Assembly: GCA_003246265.1 (NCBI GenBank)
Contig: QKAU01000029.1
Location: forward strand, 1-64,000
Length of the DNA stretch: 64,000 bases
Reading direction: 5' to 3'
Source: Kiritimatiellales bacterium
Lineage (GTDB): Bacteria > Verrucomicrobiota > Kiritimatiellia > Kiritimatiellales > Pontiellaceae
Part shown: positions 41,559-57,440 of the stretch, piece by piece
Layout of the letters: each line of letters opens with the position of its first letter
Numbering within the stretch: the stretch's first letter is position 1
Notes under the pieces: model-generated
The model's database searches: none
What the model was told of the DNA's origin: nothing
What the model saw: only the letters and a program-made list of their open reading frames with translations
Made by a program: the position numbers and the translations under genes

Positions 41559-42920
41559 ATGAAGACAAAAATCAAGCCGATCGTATCGTGGGGTATCTGG
41601 GCCGGCGGCCTTTCGCTGGTGATGGGTATCGTGACCCGCCAGCACATGGTTGCGGGTTTCCGCGCGGATGAAACGGGGATGAGCATCGTCATCGCCGCCG
41701 TGTTCGCAGCCGGACTCGTGGTCTCCTTCCTCTCCGCCCTGCAACTGCATGCGGAATGGGGGGAAATGGCCAAGATCAAGGCGAGTGGAAAGCTTCCCAA
41801 GGGAACGGGGCACTCCGACCTCGCCTCCACCTTCCAGAAGCTGTCCGACTACAAGGAAAAGGGCGAAAGGATCGAGATCCAGACCGTGGTGGACAGCTAC
41901 TACGCCAAACACAACTCCCGCGTCCGCTCGGTTTCGATCATGGCGGCGCTCGTCATCTCGATGGGCCTGCTGGGCACGGTCGTCGGCCTGATCATGTCGA
42001 TCTCCGGCCTCGGCGGCATGGTGGAGAACATCGGCCTGTCGCGCGCCACGATGATGGATGCGCTCAAGACGACGGTCGCGGGCATGGGCACCGCCTTCTA
42101 CACCACCTTCTTCGGTGCCCTCGGCGGGCTGATCCTGCGCGCGGTGGCGGTATCGCAGCTCAACTCGCTGTCCGAGCTCTGCGCCGAAGCGACCGAATAT
42201 GCCGACGCCCACCTTGTTCCGCGCTTCGAAAGCAAGGAGGAGGAGCTCAACCAGCAGGTTTCCAAGGTCATTGCCGGCTTCGAAAGGATGCAGCGCGAAA
42301 TCGACGCCCTTTCGCCGCGCATCGCCGCATCCATCGAATCGGCGCTTTCGAAGTTCGGCGAATCGATCGCCTCCATCGGCATCCAGGCCATGGAATCCAC
42401 CCAGGCGGCGGTTGCGGGCATGACCGAGCAGATGGCGGAGTTCAAGGGATCCGTCGGCGACTCCTTCGGGCAGTTCAACGCCGCAATCGGCGAGGCGGGC
42501 GAAGGCCTCCGCGATGCGATGGGGTCGGTCAACGCCGCCATCGGCGCATCGCAGGAGTCGCTGAACAGCTCCTTCGCCAGCCTCAGCGCCACGCTCGGCG
42601 AAGCGGGCGGGCAGGTATCGGAAGCGTTCGGCAGCCTGAACGGATCGGTCAAGCAGGCGAGCGACACGGTTTCCACCTCGCTGGTCGACTTCAAGCTCGC
42701 GATCGAAGGTACCAGCCTGGAACTCAACGAAGCCGTGGGCGAGCTGCACACCGCCATCGGCCGGGCGACCGGTGAAATGTCGACGATGGCCGAGGCCAGG
42801 CTCGACACGGATGCGTCGGCCATCGCCGGCCACCTCTCGCTCGCAGCCGATTCGATCCAGCAGTTCCTGCAGCGCAAGTCCGTCCGTTCAGAAGGCGAAT
42901 CCAACCAGAAGGTGGCGTAA
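41559..42920 (+). CDS. MotA/TolQ/ExbB-type stator protein with long coiled tail (ZorA-like)
   Basis: The 453-residue product has four membrane helices at about 8-26, 41-62, 125-150 and 171-197. Helix 3 has SMGLLGTVVGLIMSISGLGG and helix 4 LKTTVAGMGTAFYTTFFGALGGLILR, the proton-channel signature of ExbB/TolQ/MotA. A 250-residue tail (about 205-453) of Ala/Ser/Glu-rich quasi-repeats with no Pro looks like a long helical rod. Such a tail is seen in ZorA of Zorya systems but not in ExbB or TolQ. TAGGGG precedes the ATG. The next gene overlaps by TAATG. The force-using partner is not known. Confidence 0.85.
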   Translation: MKTKIKPIVSWGIWAGGLSLVMGIVTRQHMVAGFRADETGMSIVIAAVFAAGLVVSFLSALQLHAEWGEMAKIKASGKLPKGTGHSDLASTFQKLSDYKEKGERIEIQTVVDSYYAKHNSRVRSVSIMAALVISMGLLGTVVGLIMSISGLGGMVENIGLSRATMMDALKTTVAGMGTAFYTTFFGALGGLILRAVAVSQLNSLSELCAEATEYADAHLVPRFESKEEELNQQVSKVIAGFERMQREIDALSPRIAASIESALSKFGESIASIGIQAMESTQAAVAGMTEQMAEFKGSVGDSFGQFNAAIGEAGEGLRDAMGSVNAAIGASQESLNSSFASLSATLGEAGGQVSEAFGSLNGSVKQASDTVSTSLVDFKLAIEGTSLELNEAVGELHTAIGRATGEMSTMAEARLDTDASAIAGHLSLAADSIQQFLQRKSVRSEGESNQKVA

Positions 42921-44137
42921 TGCGTGCGGCGGCCCGTCAGGAAGCGCCCTCGGGATCCGAGGGCATCTACGAATCCTTCTCCGACATGGTGCTCTGCACC
43001 GTGATCGTGCTGATCACCCTGGTGGTGGTGCTGGCGCTCAACGTGGTGGAACAGCTCAACGTCTACATCGAGCCCAACCACTTCGGCGGCGGCGCAAACC
43101 GCCCCTGGCTCTACATCCAGGCGCAGAACGCGAACTATGCGAAGACCGCCTCCCCCCAGCTGGCCCTTGAGCGGGCCATCCACGGAGACCGGCCGTTCGT
43201 GATGGTCAACCTCTTCAGCCCTTCCGCCGCCGAATCGTCCACGACCGTCAAGGACGGCCAGACCATCGCCACCCGCGACGACATCTCGTTCAGCGGCCAG
43301 TGCGACCTGACCGCCTACGGCTTCCTCCAGCTGGCGGCGGGTATCGATCCGGGCGCCTTCGCCGTCGAGAACCTCAGGACGGCGCTGATGCTGCCCAAGT
43401 TCTCGCACAAGAGCATCCTGCTCGAACCCGGCGATGCGAACGGCTACACCCTGCAGCCCGAGAACGAGCTGGCGCTCAAGACCATGGCCATGGCCTGGCC
43501 GGTCTACCGCGACAAGCTCTATCCACGCCGCGCGGCCGCCGACTATCTGGACGCCCGCACCAAGATCTATGTCGAGGTGCTCGAGTCGGGCGACGGCCAG
43601 CACCGCATCATGATCGGCCACAGCGTCTTTACGCTGCCCGAGGATGTGCAGAACGGACGCCTCGGCTGGCTGGCGGGCTTTTCTTCCGGCCTGACGGAGG
43701 TGGTCTACCTCGGAACCGCATGGAACGAGCCGGCCAACAAGACCAACAAGCGGATCGCCTTCTTCGAGGAGAACGGCTTCGAAACGGCGGCCGAGGACTA
43801 CCGCACGTTCAGCTTTCCCGGCCAGCCCTCCTCCTACCAGCGCGAACTGATGGCCAAGGCGCAGGCCGCACGGCCCGACATCCCCCGGCGCCAGCTCGAA
43901 ACCTACGTGCGCACGGCCGAGGCGCAGCAGGCCGTATCGCTCGCCATCGCCGAGGGCATGGGCGCCGGATCCTTCCTGCCCCCGCTGCTGCGGCATCGCG
44001 ATGCCTGGACGGCCTATACCGACCACTGCATGAAGGCGGAGCTCGGCAAGACCCCGCCGGATTGGCTGATGAACGAATTCCTCGAACCGCTCGGGTTCAG
44101 CCAGGCGGTCGTGCGCGGACTGCGTTCGGAAGGATGA
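42920..44137 (+). CDS. Stator partner protein with single membrane helix (MotB/ExbD/ZorB position)
   Basis: The 405-residue product has one membrane helix at residues 23-43, preceded by SFSDMVLCT. Asp22 sits at the helix start, where MotB, ExbD and ZorB carry their proton-binding Asp. The 350-residue periplasmic part does not show the OmpA-type peptidoglycan motif of MotB or ZorB and matches no family I know. Overlap by TAATG with the stator gene indicates a two-subunit complex. A strong hairpin terminator follows 23 bases after the stop. Assignment rests on topology and synteny. Confidence 0.7.
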   Translation: MRAAARQEAPSGSEGIYESFSDMVLCTVIVLITLVVVLALNVVEQLNVYIEPNHFGGGANRPWLYIQAQNANYAKTASPQLALERAIHGDRPFVMVNLFSPSAAESSTTVKDGQTIATRDDISFSGQCDLTAYGFLQLAAGIDPGAFAVENLRTALMLPKFSHKSILLEPGDANGYTLQPENELALKTMAMAWPVYRDKLYPRRAAADYLDARTKIYVEVLESGDGQHRIMIGHSVFTLPEDVQNGRLGWLAGFSSGLTEVVYLGTAWNEPANKTNKRIAFFEENGFETAAEDYRTFSFPGQPSSYQRELMAKAQAARPDIPRRQLETYVRTAEAQQAVSLAIAEGMGAGSFLPPLLRHRDAWTAYTDHCMKAELGKTPPDWLMNEFLEPLGFSQAVVRGLRSEG

Positions 44138-47782: not shown

Positions 47783-50700
47783 TCAGGGGCGGCGCAGGCG
47801 TGCAACCGCGCCGCCCGCCAGAAGGATCAATCCGATGGAACCGGCCACCACGAAGGTGCGCGCGCCCCGCCCGCCCCGGAGCGGCGACGCGTGGAACGCG
47901 ACCGCCATCTCGGCATCGGGCTGGAGCTGCAGGGTCCGATTGAAACCGAGTTCCGTCCCCTGCCCCGCCATCACCACCCGGATGGGATGGACCTCCACCG
48001 AGGCCGCCTGCTGCTGGTCGAGCATGCGTTCGGCGAGGCCGCCCAGCGCGCTGCTCTCCTTCTCGCCCAGCACCGCCTCCACCTGCTGCACCGTTCCGCC
48101 GGCCTGGGCCTCGAGGTTGTCGGTCGACAGGTTGAGCGTCTGGCGGAGCTGGTTGCGGCGGTCGACCAGGCCCAGCAGGCCCTGCTGCCGCACGAGATTG
48201 CGGTACTGGATCCGCGCATCCTCGTTCAGGTCCTGCTGGCCCTGGGAGTAGGAGATCGCCTTGCGGAGCGCCTTGCGGGCACTGCGCTGGTCGCCGCCCT
48301 GCATATAGTCGTTGCCCGCCAAGAGGCTCTGTTTGGCGCTTTCGCCGAATCGTTGCGCAGTGTCGGTGTTGTAGCTGATGTACTCGGCCTCGCTGTAGGG
48401 ACGAAGCACGGTCCAGGAGCGGCCGTCATCCTCTGCCTGATACTCCATGGTTCCCGCGAAACCGGAATAGCGGTATCCCTCCGGCGCGTAGACCGTCCAG
48501 GCGATGTCGCGCAGCGGCAGGGCGAAGCGCGGCCCTTCGAGCCGGTATGCCCGCCCGAACGCGCCGTCCGTCCGGGAGTGGGCGTAGAACACCTCCACCA
48601 GCGCCGACCGGTCGGCCCCGGGCTCGATCGGCACCAGATAGCGGTCGCCCTCGACCAGCGGACGCACGGCGGTTTCGTTGACGAAGACCGACCAGATCTC
48701 CGCCCCCTCCGGCAGCCGCATCTCGAGGAAGCGGAGAGAACCCGGATCGAGCGTCATCACCATGCTGTCCAGGGTGCAGCCATCCCGCGCCACGAGCGAA
48801 TCGAGCCGGACGAAACGCACTTGGGCCGGCAGGACTTCCGCGGCGGCGTGGCGCACCACGCGCAGCTTCAGTTCGTAGTCCCCCTCGGTGGCCCGGTAGC
48901 AGAGGACGGCGGCCGAGAGGTCGCCCGCCCCGAAGCGCCGCGGAATGCTGCGCGCATCCTCGGGGCGCAGGGAGTCGGGAACCGCCTCGGGCTCCACCTG
49001 CAGCCGGCCGCCCGAAAGGACGACCACATATCCCTTCTGGCCTTCGGTGCCGAGGGTCTCCACGGGGCGGATGGACAGACCCGAACCGGCGTGGTCGAAC
49101 GGGGTCTGGTACATCACCTCCATGCCGTAGCGTTCCTCCACCTTGCCGTGCAGCTCCACCTCCCAGATGCCCTCGTTCTCGTCGACCTTGCGGACCCGCG
49201 CAATGTTCCGGCCGCTGACCTCCAACGCAACCGAGGGATCGGGGGTGCGCAGCCGGAAGGCCTTCACGCCGGCATGTTCGATCTCGTATTGCAGATGGCA
49301 GCGCACCTTGAGCTGGCCCTCGGCCAGGGCGATGCGCTGCAACACTTCGGCCTTCACCTGCGGCGCCATCACCTCGGCATGGAGCTGGACCGTCCAATCG
49401 GGCCGCAGCAGCCGGTAGGCGAGGCTGCCCTCCTGCCGGACGCCAAGCTCGCGCGGGTTGAGTTCGCTCGCGCCATCGCGCTGGACCGTCGTGACGCGAA
49501 TGCCGCGCTCGACCGTTACCGCCATCGTCCCAACATGCTTCAGCGCCCCATCGACCCCGATGCGCGGCATCGTAAGGTCCCGCTCCAGGTCGCGTCCTGA
49601 ACGGCTCAGCACCAGGTTTAATGGCACGGTGCCAAGCACCTGCCGCTTGAAATTGACGACGACCTCGCGCTGGCCCGTGACGACCTCGTCCCAGTGGCTG
49701 ACGGCCTCGCCGCCGAGCGTATCGATGTCGAACCCGTCGGGGATCCGGATCCGCAGCGCGAAGATGCCCGACTTGCCTACACCGACGGACAAGCGGCTGG
49801 TGAGTCGCAGTTGTTCGGCGGCGATGTCCAGGTTCGATTCCTCGACCAGCCGCAGCTCGGGCAGGACGGCATCCGCCGAAACCCGCGCCGCAAAGGGGAG
49901 CCGCCCGTAGCGGAACGCGCGCTTGATCGCCCCGCCGTGCCCAGCCTGGAGCAGCCGCGCGGCGTCATCCACATTGATCCCGCCGAGCTCCTCGGTCGAT
50001 TCGATGTCGACCTGGACGGAGTCTGCGCACGCAATCGCCACCACGCCGCGCTGCATGGCCGCCCCATGCACCGCCAATCCCTCGATGGTCGCGGAGTAGG
50101 GTAGCTTGCCGCATGCGATCTGCGCACCGATACCGAGGTGGCAGTTCCCGGAAGCCGGTGAGGAAAGCAAGACCTCGAGCAGGCGCGAGCCGGGATCGTA
50201 GCGCCACGTCGCCACGTGTTCGCCGCGCACTTCGGTGATGCTCATGCCTTCCGGCACATCGAACGAGAGGTTGCGCAGCTCGCCCTGGGCAATATTGAAA
50301 AGCAGGTCGTGGCGCAGGTCGACCGAACCCGGCCGGAAGTCGGCCAGCGTATTGACGTCGCAGTAGAAGCGGGCCTGCTCCTCGTCCGTCTTGCGCTCTT
50401 CGGGCTTCCAAACCAGGGAGCAGCGCCGATCCTTGCTGGCGAAGAGGATTTCCGCCTGCGCTCCCGCCTGGCGTACGCGGATCGCCTCGGCCGAGGCCAC
50501 GTTCCATCCCGCGACCGGCAGAGTGACCGTGGCCCGGTTCAGCAACGCCTCCGGCAACCACAGTTCCGTGCTCCAGGCCCCGTCCCGGTAGTGCGCCTCC
50601 GCGAGGCAGTCCAGCGCAACGTCATAGCGGCCCCGCCGGTCGATCCGCAGTACGCATCCCCCCTCGCCCACGGCCAGGTCCAGCCGTTTCGAGGAGAGGG

Positions 50701-53700
50701 TGAACGCCTTCAACGTTTGTCCCGGCCCCAGCAGTTGGAAGGTACCCGCGCCATCCGCCTCGAGCTCCATCGCCATGTGCACAGCCACGTTCACGGCAGT
50801 CTCCGTTTCGAACGGTGGCACCTCGACCGAAAGTGCCAGCCGGTTGGCCACGATGGCCTTCCCCTCTTCTCCGCCGGAGTTCCCGCCCAGCGAAGCGCAT
50901 CCGGCCGCCGCCAGCGCCAGGGCGGCGAGGATCAGGCCCATCAGCTTGATCTGCGCCGACCCGTCGGACCCGTCCGCCGGCATCCGCCCGTCGAAGGCCG
51001 GCATCTTGCGCCCGCCGCGGTCGGCCGCACGCTCCCTTCCCGTCCATCGGCCGACCATGAAGCAGAGTACGAAGAGGAGCAACTGGGGCGCCATGCCCAC
51101 GACCCAGGCCAGGCGCGCACTGAAGCTGCACAGCAGGACCGCGAAGGCAAGCGCCGGAAAAAGCCAGCGCCAGCGGCGGGTCGCGATCGACCAGAGCGCG
51201 GGAAGCAGTCCCACCACCCCGAGCAGCCACGCCTTGGCGGTCTCGTATCCCGCACCGGCCAGGGCCAGCTTGACGACCAGATCACCGCCGAATCCCGCCA
51301 CCGATTTGGAGAAGGTCCATTCCGACACGGCTCCGTGCTGCGCGCCCAGGCCGTCCGCCGCAACGGCGGCCATCATGATGCCCATGACTGCCACATCGGC
51401 CAGGCCGAACAGGCCCAGCAGCACCATGCCCAGTGAACCGGCACGCCGCGTTGCGGAAAGGCGCCCCATGAGGGAAAGCACCAGGGCGAGCAGGCCGCCG
51501 GCCACCAGCCAGGGCCCGGCCATGCCGACTCCGACGGCCGGAAGCAGGTCGCCCCACCCGCCGTTGCGGCGCACCAGTTCGCGCGGCGGTTCCATGTTCC
51601 CCTTTGCCCCGGCGAGGCGGTAGCCGTCGGGCAGGCGGAAGTTCCATCGAGCAAAGACCGCCTGGGTCTCGATGCGCGGGGTTTCGAAGACCATCCGGGA
51701 AGCAAGCCCCGGCTCGCGAAACTGCTGGGCGTAGGTCACCTCCACCTTCAGCGGAGCGTTCGGATCGCGCCGTCGCTCCACGGGCACCAGCACCTCGCCA
51801 TCGCCCTTGTCGAGCACCTGGACCTTGGCTTCTTCCACCTTCACCGACCATAGCGCAGCCCCTTCGGGCAGGCGCAGGGGAAGGTACTGGCGGTCGGTGT
51901 TCTTCACATGGTAGGTCGCCAGCGTCACGGCCTCGCCATCCTTCCCGATGGTGGTCTCGATGGTGGTGTGGTCCGCCACCTGGGTCAGCAGCGGCTGGGT
52001 ATCGAACCGCCTGATGCGCACCCGCGCCTCGTGCGGGCCGGCGCCGTACTTGTAGGCATGCATGACCGGGTCGTTCACCAGCAGCGCATACGCCTCGGGA
52101 ATCTCGTCGACGTCAATCGGATAGATGGCCCCCGAATGGCCGATCTCCCCGGCCACCGACAGGTTGGCGGCGCCCGCCAGCGCGATGTAGCCGGTCTCGT
52201 TCTCGATATCCAGCGCGCGGATTCCGCCGACGAGCAGCTCCTCGCCCTGGTAGCGGGCCGGATGGTCGTAGGTGACGAGCAGGGTGTAGTCGCCGATCAC
52301 CTTCTGCTGGAGACGGACGGTCCATTCGTCGCCGTCCTGCGTCCAATTGCGGATGTCGCGCCCGTTGAATTCGATGTTGCGGCAGCCTTCCGGGATCCGC
52401 AGCGCGAAGCTGCGCACCGGTGCGTTGGCGATGTTGTAGGTCACCAGGAAGCTGCCGAACACCCCGCTCTCGCCCAGGGAGACCAGCTGGAAGGATTCGG
52501 CATGGATCGAAGCCATTTCCTGGCGAATGCCGACGCGGCCCGACCACTCCGGCCCCTTGAAGCGGAAGGCCTGGCGCGCGTCTACGATCTGCACCGGAAG
52601 CGATCCGGTGTTCACTTCGCGCAGGCCGGACAGCTCGAGCCCCTCCACGCGCGTGCCCGTCTCCCCGCGCAATACGAGGAAGCCGCGCTCCGACTTGGCG
52701 CTTGCCACCCGGAACCGGGGCATGCGAAACCCGGTGGCACCTTCCGCCAGCGTGCGCTCAAGCCGCAACTGGAGCAGCGTACGGTTCTCGATCGCCTGCT
52801 TGAAATAGATCCGGATCCAGCGGGAACCGTCGCGGTCGCGCACATCGTAATCCGCCACGTTGCCGCCTTCGGCGGCGGTCACGGTCCAATCCAGGGGCAC
52901 CTCCACCTCGACATCGCGCACCGGGGCGTCGCGCACTTCGAGGTCGACCCGCGCATCGAGGGAGGCCTCGTTGTCGCCGAAGGCCAGCACGAGCTGGTCC
53001 TGGGCATGGAGCGAGGTGACGATGTTGTCGGCCGAGAGGGAGAGGGAGAAGGGCATGTTCGCGAACATGTAGGCGTAGAGCCCGCGCTGCGGGAGCGGCA
53101 GGTCGCCCACGCTCAACGAGGCCGGCTCCACTTGGGTCAATCCGCCGAGGTCGTCCACGAGCAGTTTCAGGGTACTGTCGGTACCGACCAGCACTACGCC
53201 GTTGGCGCGGATCACGCCTTCGGGCTCGATCACCGGGAAGCTGAAGGAACAGGGGAAGTCGGCCAGCGGCAGCTCGGCCTGGAGGGCCAGCAGGTAGCGT
53301 CCTTCCTGGGGGCGGCTCAGCTCGACGGCAAGATGCCGGTCTCCTGCCTCGCCGCGCACATCCCACGACAGCACGTCCTCGCCCACCACCTGGATGATGT
53401 TGAGTCCGTCCGGGAGCGCGAGCGAGATGCCCTTCATGCGCCCCTGCGGGATCGCGTAGTCGAAACGCCCCTGCAGCAGCAGGGCGCCAACCTTCGCCGA
53501 GCCTACCAGGGTGCTTTCGCAAGTCGCCACCAGTTCGCCCGACAGCTTCTCCAGCTCGGGCCGCCAGCCGACCCGCAGCGCCCCGGTCGGCGGCAGGAAG
53601 ATGCGGAGGTGCCTGTCGTCCAGCCGCTCCGTCTTCGGGGCATCGGCCACCTCGACCGAGCAGTCCGCATCGGCCGTCTCGACCACCATCTGCCGCACCG

Positions 53701-54052
53701 CGGCGGCCGGCACGCCGAACACCGTGGCCCGCTTCTGCCCCGAGGAGAACACCTTCGCCTCGAAATCGATCGACACCTCCTGCCTGCCGTTCTTTTCAAA
53801 CTCCAGGTAGTAGGCCCCCTCCTCGAGGATCAGCTGCGCGCCGCGCGGAAGCTTCATCTCCGTGGGCAGCACCATCCCGTCGAGCACCAGCATGCGCGCA
53901 GGGGCATCGTCGACCTCCGCCTCGAACCGCAGCCGCAGCGCCAGCTCCTCCTTGGAGATGCGGCCCTCCAGGTCGACCTGCCTGATCCCGACCTCCGCCA
54001 CGGCCCCATGGGCCAGAAGCAATACGACTAGAGCCATCCATGCGCGTTTCAT
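47783..54052 (-). CDS. Giant 2089-residue membrane protein with duplicated beta-rich halves
   Basis: The protein starts with a signal peptide (WMALVVLLLAHGAVA). It has a long beta-rich extracytoplasmic half, a cluster of several membrane helices near residues 830-1010, a second beta-rich half, and a C-terminal helix (FVVAGSIGLILLAGGAVARL). The halves are related: RLPEGAALWSVKVEEA with LVPVE (near 730) resembles RLPEGAEIWSVFVNET with LVPIE (near 1785). A lipobox-like LAAAGC at about residue 1051 lies between them, as if a second gene had been fused. A helical, Gln-rich section occurs near 1900-1980. It follows the anti-sigma/vWA gene by 38 bases, preceded by GAGAGG. Function unknown; a surface or secretion-related role is possible. 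Confidence 0.75.
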   Translation of the reverse strand: MKRAWMALVVLLLAHGAVAEVGIRQVDLEGRISKEELALRLRFEAEVDDAPARMLVLDGMVLPTEMKLPRGAQLILEEGAYYLEFEKNGRQEVSIDFEAKVFSSGQKRATVFGVPAAAVRQMVVETADADCSVEVADAPKTERLDDRHLRIFLPPTGALRVGWRPELEKLSGELVATCESTLVGSAKVGALLLQGRFDYAIPQGRMKGISLALPDGLNIIQVVGEDVLSWDVRGEAGDRHLAVELSRPQEGRYLLALQAELPLADFPCSFSFPVIEPEGVIRANGVVLVGTDSTLKLLVDDLGGLTQVEPASLSVGDLPLPQRGLYAYMFANMPFSLSLSADNIVTSLHAQDQLVLAFGDNEASLDARVDLEVRDAPVRDVEVEVPLDWTVTAAEGGNVADYDVRDRDGSRWIRIYFKQAIENRTLLQLRLERTLAEGATGFRMPRFRVASAKSERGFLVLRGETGTRVEGLELSGLREVNTGSLPVQIVDARQAFRFKGPEWSGRVGIRQEMASIHAESFQLVSLGESGVFGSFLVTYNIANAPVRSFALRIPEGCRNIEFNGRDIRNWTQDGDEWTVRLQQKVIGDYTLLVTYDHPARYQGEELLVGGIRALDIENETGYIALAGAANLSVAGEIGHSGAIYPIDVDEIPEAYALLVNDPVMHAYKYGAGPHEARVRIRRFDTQPLLTQVADHTTIETTIGKDGEAVTLATYHVKNTDRQYLPLRLPEGAALWSVKVEEAKVQVLDKGDGEVLVPVERRRDPNAPLKVEVTYAQQFREPGLASRMVFETPRIETQAVFARWNFRLPDGYRLAGAKGNMEPPRELVRRNGGWGDLLPAVGVGMAGPWLVAGGLLALVLSLMGRLSATRRAGSLGMVLLGLFGLADVAVMGIMMAAVAADGLGAQHGAVSEWTFSKSVAGFGGDLVVKLALAGAGYETAKAWLLGVVGLLPALWSIATRRWRWLFPALAFAVLLCSFSARLAWVVGMAPQLLLFVLCFMVGRWTGRERAADRGGRKMPAFDGRMPADGSDGSAQIKLMGLILAALALAAAGCASLGGNSGGEEGKAIVANRLALSVEVPPFETETAVNVAVHMAMELEADGAGTFQLLGPGQTLKAFTLSSKRLDLAVGEGGCVLRIDRRGRYDVALDCLAEAHYRDGAWSTELWLPEALLNRATVTLPVAGWNVASAEAIRVRQAGAQAEILFASKDRRCSLVWKPEERKTDEEQARFYCDVNTLADFRPGSVDLRHDLLFNIAQGELRNLSFDVPEGMSITEVRGEHVATWRYDPGSRLLEVLLSSPASGNCHLGIGAQIACGKLPYSATIEGLAVHGAAMQRGVVAIACADSVQVDIESTEELGGINVDDAARLLQAGHGGAIKRAFRYGRLPFAARVSADAVLPELRLVEESNLDIAAEQLRLTSRLSVGVGKSGIFALRIRIPDGFDIDTLGGEAVSHWDEVVTGQREVVVNFKRQVLGTVPLNLVLSRSGRDLERDLTMPRIGVDGALKHVGTMAVTVERGIRVTTVQRDGASELNPRELGVRQEGSLAYRLLRPDWTVQLHAEVMAPQVKAEVLQRIALAEGQLKVRCHLQYEIEHAGVKAFRLRTPDPSVALEVSGRNIARVRKVDENEGIWEVELHGKVEERYGMEVMYQTPFDHAGSGLSIRPVETLGTEGQKGYVVVLSGGRLQVEPEAVPDSLRPEDARSIPRRFGAGDLSAAVLCYRATEGDYELKLRVVRHAAAEVLPAQVRFVRLDSLVARDGCTLDSMVMTLDPGSLRFLEMRLPEGAEIWSVFVNETAVRPLVEGDRYLVPIEPGADRSALVEVFYAHSRTDGAFGRAYRLEGPRFALPLRDIAWTVYAPEGYRYSGFAGTMEYQAEDDGRSWTVLRPYSEAEYISYNTDTAQRFGESAKQSLLAGNDYMQGGDQRSARKALRKAISYSQGQQDLNEDARIQYRNLVRQQGLLGLVDRRNQLRQTLNLSTDNLEAQAGGTVQQVEAVLGEKESSALGGLAERMLDQQQAASVEVHPIRVVMAGQGTELGFNRTLQLQPDAEMAVAFHASPLRGGRGARTFVVAGSIGLILLAGGAVARLRRP

Positions 54053-54090
54053 GATCCACCTCTCCATTCCATCGATTCCCGTGCTCGCCG

Positions 54091-56868
54091 CTAGCGCTCC
54101 AGCGCCGCCGCCGTCGAAATCAGCTGCTGCAGTTCCCCCACCTGCCCGTCGAGATCCAGCGCCAGCGCCACCGGCTGCAGGTTTTCGAAGACCTCGTCGA
54201 GCGATGTGCCATCGGCATAGGGATTGCGCCGCAGCTTCTCCGCAAACTCGGCCGCACAGGCCGCCAGCCGGAAGCGCGGATCGGCCTCCTCGAAGCGACC
54301 GGAGCGCTGCGCATCGCCGATGCCGCGGCTGGTCTCCTCCACGGTGCCGTTGTCGCTCCGGCGGTAGCGCACGTGGACGGTGGCGACCGGCTCGCCATCC
54401 GCTTCACCCGGTTTCAGCTCCACCTCATAGAGCGCCGTCACCGATTGGCCGGATCCCACCTCGCCCGCATCCACCGTGTCGTCGCGGAACTGCTCCTTGG
54501 TCAATCGGCGGTTTTCATAGCCGAGTTGGCGGTAGCGCACCACCCGCTCCGGATTGAATTCGACCTGGATCTTCACATCGCTGGCGATCACGTGGAGCGT
54601 GGCGGCCAGCTGGTCGACGAAGAGGCGGCGCGCCTCGTCGAGCGTATCGACGAAGGCATAGGAGCCGTCGCCGCGATTGGCCAGCTGTTCAAGGAGCTCG
54701 TCGTCGTAGGTGCCCTGCCCGAAGCCGAGGACCGAAAGGTAGATGCCCTTCGCCCGGTATTCGGCGACCTGGGCGAGCATCGCCTCCGGATCGAGTTCGC
54801 CCAGGTTGGCCACGCCATCGGAGAGGACGATGATCCGGTTCGAGTCGCCGGGGCCGTAGCCGGCGGAGGCCACCTGGTAGCCCAGCTCCAGCCCCTTGTC
54901 GAACTGGGTCGGGCCGCCCGGCTGGAGGGCATCGATCGCCTCCCGCAGCGCCGCCTTGCCGGAGGCGGGCAGGTGTTCGCGCACCAGCCGCGCATCGCCG
55001 CCGAACTGGACGATGGCCACCCGGTCGTCGGGTCCGAGCTGGTCGAGCAGCAGGGCCAGCGACGCCTTCACGAGGCCAAGGCGGTCGGGGGTGCTCATCG
55101 ATCCGGAGGTGTCGACCACCAGCGTCAACACCGCCCCGCGGTGGTCGTCGCGCCCGATGCGGCGGCCCTTGATCCCGATCTTGAGCAGTTCCATCGGCGG
55201 GCGGAAGGGCGACGGGGCCATCGCCGCATGGACGGCAAAGGTCTGCGCCCCGGCGGGCGGGCGATAGTCGTATTCGAAGCTGTTGATGAACTCTTCGGTC
55301 CGCACGCTTTCGGGAGCGGGCAGGTTGCCGCCCAGCAGCTGCTGCCGGGCCAGCCCGTAGGAGGCGGTATCGACATCGATCGAAAAGGTGGAGAAGGGAT
55401 TTCCGGCCGCCTCCACGTAGGGATTGAACGCCGCGGGTTTGCGTTCGCGAACCCGGCCGAGAGCCTCCAGCTCCTTGTCCGCGGCCTCGCGTTTTTCGCT
55501 AAGCTTGCGGTCGACCGGCTTGGCCTTGGGTTTGAGCAGGGGTTGGGCCGGGGCTGCGGGCGCCGGGGCGGGCTTGGGCTCTTCCGCCATGACGGGACTG
55601 CCGAACAGATCGCCGACCGTGAAATCACCTTCCACCTTGGCACCGCCGGCCCGGTCTCCCAACGCAGGTGCGGCGGCCTTGCCGAGGTCGTTGCCCAATG
55701 CAAGCCGTTGCGCGACGGGCGCGCTGGAAGGGAGTGCATCCGCGGACCAGGCCGGGGTGGCATTCTGCAGATCCAGCTTGAGGGCCCCATCGCCGGAGCC
55801 GCCATGCAATCCAAGCTCGGCGACGCCACGCCCCGAAGCTACCGGGTCGTCGAAGTCCCAGACAGTCTGTGTCGAGCCCGCCGGCTGCGTCTGGCCGGCA
55901 ACAACGGCCGACTGCCGCCCGTTGATGGAGTCGGCGATGGAATCGAGCGCCGCAAAGCCATCGGCCGGCACCTGGGGCTGGGCGGATGGCTGATCGGCCG
56001 CGCCTCCCTTCGCGCCGAAAAATGCTATTTCCGGCATGCTGAACCCCACGCTGGAGCCATCGGCCAGCCCGTAGCTGTCCATGCCGCCAGCGATCCCGCT
56101 CATCTCGGGCATCGCAATCTCCGGTATCGAAATTCCCGCGCCTTTGGCGACGATGCGTCTTGAAGGTTTGGGCGGAGCGCTCTTGGAGATGCTGGCCGGC
56201 ACCTGGAGTTTCTTCATCGCCACCCTGGGCCGGTCGACCGTGGGGGCGGAGAAGGTCGGATCCGCCCCCGCGCCCCCCAATCCACTGTAGTCCCCGCTGC
56301 CCGCAAAGCCGAAGTAGGAGTAGGACAGTTCCTCGCCCGCCATTCCTCCGCCGGCCGCCAGCGCCTCGTCGGCGGCAGGTTCTTCGTAGAGGGCGGCACC
56401 GTAGAGGCGGGATTCGGATGGCGGTCCACTCTTCTTCACCGACACGGACGGCTTCTTCAGTTTCATCTGCGGCCGCGCCATAGGCGTGGGCGGCGTGAAG
56501 CACTGCTCTTCCTTCTGAACGACGGAAAAGACGACGAACATGCCGGAGAACATGAACGCGAAGACGGCAATGACACTGGTGGCGAGGGCGGCCCGGAACT
56601 GGGCGCTGTACCAGATCCGCGCGGCGAGGCTGCCGCGCAGGTTGACCGCGCGTTGGCGGGCGGGCCGCCAGTAGGGCAGCACCGCCGGGGCGGGCGCGGC
56701 GGCGAGGGCTTCGCCCAGCAGCTGCAGCGCCTCGTGCCGGGCCATCAGCTCGGCGCGGCAGGCGGGGCATTGGTCGAGGTGGACCCGCAGCGCGTGGTAG
56801 TCGCGCTCGTAGAGTTCGCCGTGGAGGTAGGCGACGAGCAGCTTTTCAAACCGTTTGCATTCCTTCAT
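54091..56868 (-). CDS. Zinc-finger anti-sigma factor fused to a periplasmic vWA protein
   Basis: The 925-residue protein starts with a zinc-finger anti-sigma domain (HLDQCPAC, residues 30-37). A membrane helix follows at about 93-117. The periplasmic part has Pro/Gly-rich linkers including residues 132-150 and 213-289, then a YfbK-type vWA region: NPFSTFSIDVDTASYG near 490, and the intact metal site VVDTSGSMS near 583. A C-terminal DUF3520-like domain ends the protein. The design suggests that an outside event sensed by the vWA domain is passed through the membrane to free the sigma factor. The sigma gene overlaps by ATGA and the giant gene follows. The mechanism is inference. Confidence 0.85.
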   Translation of the reverse strand: MKECKRFEKLLVAYLHGELYERDYHALRVHLDQCPACRAELMARHEALQLLGEALAAAPAPAVLPYWRPARQRAVNLRGSLAARIWYSAQFRAALATSVIAVFAFMFSGMFVVFSVVQKEEQCFTPPTPMARPQMKLKKPSVSVKKSGPPSESRLYGAALYEEPAADEALAAGGGMAGEELSYSYFGFAGSGDYSGLGGAGADPTFSAPTVDRPRVAMKKLQVPASISKSAPPKPSRRIVAKGAGISIPEIAMPEMSGIAGGMDSYGLADGSSVGFSMPEIAFFGAKGGAADQPSAQPQVPADGFAALDSIADSINGRQSAVVAGQTQPAGSTQTVWDFDDPVASGRGVAELGLHGGSGDGALKLDLQNATPAWSADALPSSAPVAQRLALGNDLGKAAAPALGDRAGGAKVEGDFTVGDLFGSPVMAEEPKPAPAPAAPAQPLLKPKAKPVDRKLSEKREAADKELEALGRVRERKPAAFNPYVEAAGNPFSTFSIDVDTASYGLARQQLLGGNLPAPESVRTEEFINSFEYDYRPPAGAQTFAVHAAMAPSPFRPPMELLKIGIKGRRIGRDDHRGAVLTLVVDTSGSMSTPDRLGLVKASLALLLDQLGPDDRVAIVQFGGDARLVREHLPASGKAALREAIDALQPGGPTQFDKGLELGYQVASAGYGPGDSNRIIVLSDGVANLGELDPEAMLAQVAEYRAKGIYLSVLGFGQGTYDDELLEQLANRGDGSYAFVDTLDEARRLFVDQLAATLHVIASDVKIQVEFNPERVVRYRQLGYENRRLTKEQFRDDTVDAGEVGSGQSVTALYEVELKPGEADGEPVATVHVRYRRSDNGTVEETSRGIGDAQRSGRFEEADPRFRLAACAAEFAEKLRRNPYADGTSLDEVFENLQPVALALDLDGQVGELQQLISTAAALER

Positions 56869-57440
56869 GACAGCACCCCCGCCTTGCGCAGGCTTTGGGT
56901 CAGCTTCCGGGTTGCGGCATGGATGAGCGTGCCGACATAGCCTTCGGATCGGCCGAGCACATCCGCAATCTCCTTGTAGGACATCTCCTCCTGCAGCCGG
57001 AGGACAAGCACCTCCCGCTCCTTCGGCTTCAGGGTGTTGAGGTGGCGCATCACCAGGGCCATGCGTTCGTCGCGGCCGCCGGGATCGCCCGCGCTGCACG
57101 GCGGGGGCGACAGCCTGGACTGCCGTTCGTGGAGCAGCCGCAGGCGAGACTCCTTGCGGATGTAGTCGACCGCCACGTTGTGCGCCGTGCGCATCAGCCA
57201 TCCCCGGAGCGGAACCCCTTTGGCGCGGATCCTTTCCCAGTTCCCATGGAGCCGGATGAAGGTCTCCTGGACGACGTCGTGCGCGGCGGCATCGTTGGCC
57301 AGCACGCGGGCGGCGTAGCGCAGCAAGGCGGATTGGTAGGTCTCCATGGCACCCTCCAGGTCCATGCGGTCCATTTCGCTCTGCCCAGGCTCCGGAAGCC
57401 GTTCGATCATCTGGTGGTCCTTTTTTCCGGGGTCTTTCAT
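56865..57440 (-). CDS. ECF sigma factor
   Basis: The 191-residue protein is an ECF sigma factor. Region 2 contains LLRYAARVLANDAAAHDVVQETFIRLHGNWERIR and region 4 LKPKEREVLVLRLQEEMSYKEIADVLGRSEGYVGTLIHAATRKL. It overlaps the anti-sigma/vWA gene by ATGA and probably directs transcription of its own operon and the giant gene. The start at 57440 lies 140 bases from the divergent glpD start, and promoters for both lie in that gap. Confidence 0.93.
   Translation of the reverse strand: MKDPGKKDHQMIERLPEPGQSEMDRMDLEGAMETYQSALLRYAARVLANDAAAHDVVQETFIRLHGNWERIRAKGVPLRGWLMRTAHNVAVDYIRKESRLRLLHERQSRLSPPPCSAGDPGGRDERMALVMRHLNTLKPKEREVLVLRLQEEMSYKEIADVLGRSEGYVGTLIHAATRKLTQSLRKAGVLS

Follow-up and report, generated by a model that had tools for sequence, protein, structure and literature searches.

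A ZorA-like gene pair with a long rod tail and a predicted new periplasmic domain in Kiritimatiellales, probably part of an undescribed cell-envelope machine

The 5:2 ion-driven motors known so far serve flagella, the Ton and Tol systems, gliding and type 9 secretion (T9SS), and Zorya. The general scheme of these motors has been reviewed (PMC9389320), and ZorAB has been described as an analogous 5:2 motor, in which the OmpA-type peptidoglycan-binding domain of ZorB is required for Zorya defence (PMC11890865).

A gene pair related to these motors is contained in a 64-kb window, i.e. the whole stretch of DNA analysed (64,000 nucleotides), taken from a 3.0-Mb assembly, 96% complete, of a marine, Pontiella-like bacterium. 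A first-pass annotation, made from the sequence alone, had read the pair as a stator-like complex of two genes, working on the cell envelope or in defence. The observation was confirmed by the analysis reported here; the interpretation was partly supported, and extended.

The gene pair and the described motors

Both open reading frames of the pair were confirmed, with the following limits.

41559-42920, + strand: ORF A, 453 aa, motor subunit of the MotA/ExbB/ZorA family with a long cytoplasmic tail
42907-42915, + strand: ribosome-binding site of ORF B, within the last codons of ORF A; AGAAGGTGG, containing AAGGTGG
42920-44137, + strand: ORF B, 405 aa, axle-like subunit with a predicted new periplasmic domain

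The frames share a single base (TAATG), and the ribosome-binding site of ORF B lies in the end of ORF A, which indicates that the two are translationally coupled.

ORF A passes the cut-off of the Pfam family MotA_ExbB (PF01618), with 36.5 against 22.9 bits. Profile search of the PDB gave chain 8vvn, a type I ZorA, as the top sequence relative (E 3e-12), and matches to the ZorA models of PADLOC are weak (E 7e-8). The AF2 model resembles the folds of ExbB, TolQ, MotA and ZorA with probabilities up to 1.00 and a best E of 1.2e-3, i.e. just above 0.001. Matches of ORF A to 'Apolipoprotein' were discarded as coiled-helix background. Hydropathy reveals four hydrophobic helices, with peaks at residues 8, 43, 127 and 180, so that the topology is like that of MotA and ZorA, unlike the three-helix one of ExbB and TolQ. 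The ExbB/TolQ helices of the first-pass annotation stand as far as the MotA_ExbB family is concerned, but there are four of them, not three, and the best PDB relative is ZorA.

41577-41633, + strand: transmembrane helix 1 of A, residues 7-25 (hydropathy, AF2 helix)
41685-41741, + strand: transmembrane helix 2 of A, residues 43-61 (hydropathy, AF2 helix 41-76)
41937-42008, + strand: transmembrane helix 3 of A, residues ~127-150 (hydropathy), with the motif GLLGTVVGL including Thr140
42066-42143, + strand: transmembrane helix 4 of A, residues ~170-195 (hydropathy), with Thr172 and the motif GMGTAFYTTF
42147-42917, + strand: rod tail of A, residues 197-453, acidic and almost proline-free (at most 1 proline)
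42780-42866, + strand: tip of the tail, residues 408-436, with A419, A423, L426, A429 and A430 invariant

Thr140 is invariant across three subgroups of relatives, and we take it to be equivalent to the Thr in the second transmembrane helix of ExbB; Thr172 is at least 90% conserved among relatives, in which GMGTAFYTT is nearly invariant. The tail, ~255 residues long, is modelled by AF2 as helical with low confidence. Its hydrophobic residues recur with a period of 3.62 residues, or 3.62-3.65 over every relative tested, and the Fourier power of this period is 15-39, against ~1 expected for a random order. The long rod proposed at first is thus upheld. Tail length varies strongly among relatives, and the tip is conserved.

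ORF B carries, as initially proposed, a single helix with Asp22 at its start, which hydropathy places at residues 25-43.

42971-42985, + strand: motif E18-S-F-S-D22 of B, ahead of the transmembrane helix
42986-43048, + strand: single transmembrane helix of B, residues 23-43 (hydropathy 2.99, AF2 helix 17-45)
43061-44116, + strand: periplasmic domain of B, residues 48-399 (~350), mixed alpha/beta by AF2

E18, F20 and D22 are invariant in 27/27 relatives and S21 is nearly so (E-x-F-S-D); the transmembrane helix, too, is retained in all 27. The periplasmic domain, modelled by AF2 with a pLDDT of 83 and a pTM of 0.80, has no Pfam, NCBIfam or PADLOC match even at E<=10. PDB sequence searches with B and with the B profile gave nothing meaningful, Foldseek found no match at E<=0.001 among PDB structures and viral models, and hhalign of B against the five ExbD/TolR proteins of the same genome gave a probability of 2.1%. 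On the strength of the model, the domain would have a new fold, 'new' being meant with respect to solved structures and viral models. The first-pass annotation had likewise called the ~350-residue domain new and devoid of the OmpA-type motif.

The sequence features of the motor superfamily are found in the pair, namely PF01618 in A, the Asp22-led transmembrane helix in the adjacent B and the conserved Thr in A. The closest resemblance is to ZorAB (PDB 8VVN, 8VVI), the nearest PDB sequence relative of A, which has the same four transmembrane helices and a long helical cytoplasmic tail. B is like ZorB in its short N-terminus, one transmembrane helix and Asp at position 22 (D24/D21 in ZorB, PMC11890865). 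Unlike Zorya, however, the pair has in B no OmpA-type peptidoglycan-binding domain (no Pfam match at E<=10, no PDB fold match) and is accompanied by no ZorC, ZorD or ZorE, the first sought genome-wide and the other two among the neighbours; it occupies a fixed chromosomal locus and is co-inherited with a PEGA lipoprotein.

With TolQR-TolA-TolB-Pal and ExbBD-TonB the pair shares the ion-channel core and, apparently, an inner-membrane motor working with an outer lipoprotein. It differs from them by the four-helix A with a long tail, by a B without the ExbD/TolR domain (PF02472) and by the lack of TolA/TonB; in addition, the genome has separate Tol-Pal and Ton sets. MotAB/PomAB stators also combine a four-helix A with an Asp-led helix in B, but B of the window has neither plug nor OmpA-like domain (no Pfam match) and the tail of A is coiled. 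In GldLM, of gliding and type 9 secretion, a large periplasmic B-type subunit likewise takes the place of the OmpA domain, whereas here A is of the four-helix MotA_ExbB type with a tail, and B has no significant PDB match by sequence or fold. By the features tested, the A-B pair does not belong to the Zorya, Tol, Ton or Mot systems.

Conservation and genomic setting

The pair is neighboured by rsmB, htrA, xseA and ymdB. ZorC, ZorD, ZorE, TonB and Tol genes do not adjoin it, as the first-pass annotation had also found, and PADLOC gives no specific defence match among the neighbours; its mad2 match (rsmB) and RT-protease match (htrA) were rejected as shared-fold background. Elsewhere in the window, two very large ORFs lie next to each other on the - strand (47783-54067 and 54091-57201, 2094 and 1036 aa); the 2094-aa one contains several hydrophobic stretches and, behind them, an internal lipobox-like segment (AAGCASLGG), which gives the impression of a fusion of two membrane proteins.

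An intact window-type pair is present in 17/28 genomes of the genus, this one included, with ORF A preceding the window-type B wherever the contig extends far enough. Identity is ~60-73% in the 16 other genomes, and dN/dS values of ~0.1-0.26 denote purifying selection; conservation and selection together argue that the ORFs are not due to chance. B matches no known ExbD/MotB family and its pairing with A is conserved in relatives, the two points on which the first-pass annotation had staked its proposal.

The pair lies nearly always between rsmB and htrA-xseB-xseA, and rsmB directly adjoins htrA in the genomes devoid of it. A 26-codon relic of B is found between rsmB and htrA in a genome of a sister genus (G028). 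In G025 the window-type pair has become a pseudogene (L142:4834-6112), with several stops and frameshifts in B, and a second-copy A-B pair is intact. The locus is fixed and passed on vertically, with the pair lost repeatedly.

When 388 genomes of the phylum were searched with the B profile, matches were confined to the genus itself (9 genomes), so that no wider context evidence came from it. The search for relatives added one genome, G039, from another family of the same order; the proposed machine would, as far as seen, be restricted to Kiritimatiellales. Phage and plasmid records contained no relatives of the pair.

A profile of the A core detected two remotely related loci in Verrucomicrobiota, whose B-type proteins are of different kinds. 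At L139:6387-8016, a tail-less A-like protein is followed by a protein that starts, like B, with F-E-S-F-S-D and a transmembrane helix, but has a segment resembling a von Willebrand A domain (DGTGSM); judging from its sequence, this locus suggests that the B head occurs with more than one type of periplasmic domain. At L140:459-3167, a distant A-like gene is followed by two proteins, each starting with an Asp-led transmembrane helix, as if one A were served by two B-type subunits.

A second copy of the pair and a candidate lipoprotein partner

The same genome contains a diverged second A-B pair on contig C72, with 30% identity in A and 40% in B.

G000:C72:22989-25721 (L043:8972-11824): second A-B pair, with a PEGA lipoprotein gene that overlaps it and continues downstream to L043:7801

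The overlapping gene has a GTG start near L043:8952, and its product has PEGA repeats (Pfam PF08308) and the Cys of a lipobox. Such a gene is found directly downstream of B of the C72 type in this genome and in 10 others. The window pair has no adjacent PEGA lipoprotein gene. Two further PEGA lipoproteins are encoded elsewhere in the genome, P0003 on contig C5 and P0004 on contig C62.

L087:7240-8580 (contig C5), - strand: P0003, with 5-6 PEGA repeats and a lipobox, between the pyruvate:ferredoxin oxidoreductase gene (PFOR) and phoH

Orthologues of P0003 (61-69% identity) occur in exactly 17/17 genomes with the window-type pair and in 0/11 of the others, an agreement in presence and absence over all 28 genomes of the genus; the control lipoprotein P0004 is at odds with the pair in 9/28. 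With an RpoB tree of 27 genomes as reference, at least 6 changes are needed to explain the pattern of pair and P0003. Independent pairs of genomes on the best tree agree in 6/6 cases, and the pattern is identical. On strongly supported branches 3/3 agree, three concordant pairs being by themselves too few for significance. Independent traits simulated on the tree, in a model that leaves assembly gaps aside, came within 2 genomes of the observed pattern in 0/150,000 cases.

Decay of the two components also coincides. In G025, P0003 is reduced to its last 67 codons alongside the broken A-B; in G026 the pair is gone, nothing lies between rsmB and htrA, and of P0003 a 39-codon relic is left between PFOR and phoH. 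The pair of G013 has been relocated to ~6 kb from P0003. The G039 relative of B, the closest to the window type (48-51%), adjoins a PEGA lipoprotein which resembles P0003 (35%) more than it does the C72 type. Against a partnership stand the unlinked position of P0003 and A-B in most genomes and the sister-genus genome G028, which keeps a P0003 homologue (44%), with B found only as the 26-codon relic, in an assembly 79% complete; some of the absences could be gaps in metagenome-assembled genomes (MAGs).

From this distribution, P0003 is likely to be the partner of the window pair. The lipobox Cys of P0003 has Ala next to it. In E. coli, which belongs to another phylum than the host, Ala after this Cys is an outer-membrane signal (+2 rule). 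Because of the lipobox and this rule, P0003 is probably anchored in the outer membrane. As PEGA lipoproteins adjoin the pair in the paralogues and in G039, and P0003 is co-inherited with the window-type pair, the system probably comprises more than the two genes assumed at first.

The proposed machine and its alternatives

The reading that we moderately favour is that of an ion-driven 5:2 motor composed of A and B which, together with the PEGA lipoprotein P0003, makes up a trans-envelope machine with a housekeeping task in Pontiellaceae. In the sequences, this is based on the family of A, the Asp-led helix of B, the conserved pairing, the purifying selection and the joint inheritance with P0003. 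By analogy with the described motors, five A subunits would form a ring around a B dimer, with Asp22 in the ion path. Ions would flow past Asp22 of B and a ring of T140 and T172 of A facing it, so that the parts rotate relative to each other or are strained. Via its periplasmic domain, B would hand the force on to P0003, presumably by direct contact and at the outer membrane; rather than binding peptidoglycan as OmpA domains do, the domain would work with the PEGA lipoprotein. The coiled tail of A would reach into the cytoplasm, its conserved tip sensing or acting on a cytoplasmic partner.

More tentatively, the machine may represent an undescribed trans-envelope class. A ZorA-like motor, equipped with a rod in the cytoplasm, would use a new axle domain to drive a PEGA-repeat lipoprotein in the outer membrane. 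One mechanical device would then link cytoplasm, periplasm and outer membrane.

Five other ExbB-family loci are present in the genome, including a complete-looking Tol-Pal, so that the machine would add to them, not replace them. The idea of a Tol-Pal replacement was dropped, TolQ-TolR-TolA-TolB-Pal-like genes being found on contig C11. At one of the ExbB loci (L090:5560-6399), two different ExbD genes follow in tandem.

Unlikely, in our judgement, is a motor that exports or places surface proteins, or that serves in the handling of surface polysaccharides, similar to gliding/T9SS, with the PEGA lipoprotein as periplasmic or surface scaffold. GldLM provides a precedent, being a motor of the superfamily that drives both secretion and gliding (PMC9389320), and in the small genomes G011 and G016 the genes of A, B and the PEGA lipoprotein are followed by that of an autotransporter, into which the operon continues. 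The autotransporter is however confined to these two related genomes and absent beside other copies. It measures 1190-1243 aa, with repeated 'W..TSGD'-like units (L049:4787-8359 and L050:4328-8059).

A stand-alone, ZorAB-like anti-phage sensor, which would sense envelope damage and signal through the tail to an unlinked cytoplasmic effector, is distinctly improbable. The weak PADLOC matches to ZorA, the first place of ZorA among PDB relatives and the long tail with its conserved tip point in this direction, but B is without the OmpA-type domain of ZorB and no ZorC-type EH_Signature protein is encoded in the whole genome. The neighbours are housekeeping genes without specific defence match, the phage and plasmid records yielded no copies, and the fixed locus tracks the species tree, whereas defence systems are spread patchily. 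A defence role is held unlikely because adjacent ZorC, ZorD and ZorE genes, a mobile context and a changing locus are all lacking. Between the two tasks offered by the first-pass annotation, the fixed housekeeping locus and the vertical pattern favour envelope work, and the absence of an effector and of phage or plasmid copies speaks against defence.

Finally, it is hardly credible that the pair is an ExbBD/TolQR derivative of an ordinary, lineage-specific sort, B being a strongly diverged ExbD/TolR domain with insertions: Foldseek does list TolR 5by4 for B (non-significant, E 2.6, prob 0.06), but the profile probability of B against the five ExbD/TolR proteins of its own genome is 2%, A has four transmembrane helices and a long tail, and five canonical ExbB-family loci, Tol-Pal included, are already present.

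The A-B-PEGA system is thus probably a previously undescribed cell-envelope machine rather than a virus defence. In the literature covered, subscription papers and preprints being outside its scope, no paper was found that joins PEGA domains with ExbB or a proton channel. Cultured Pontiellaceae isolates (L008, L010, L011) carry the pair, which makes the proposed machine testable in principle. If the proposal is true, the 5:2 motors would have a distinct further output, through a new axle domain and a partner lipoprotein of the PEGA type; the long tail of Zorya type would occur also outside a recognisable defence setting, and PEGA lipoproteins may have a mechanical role.
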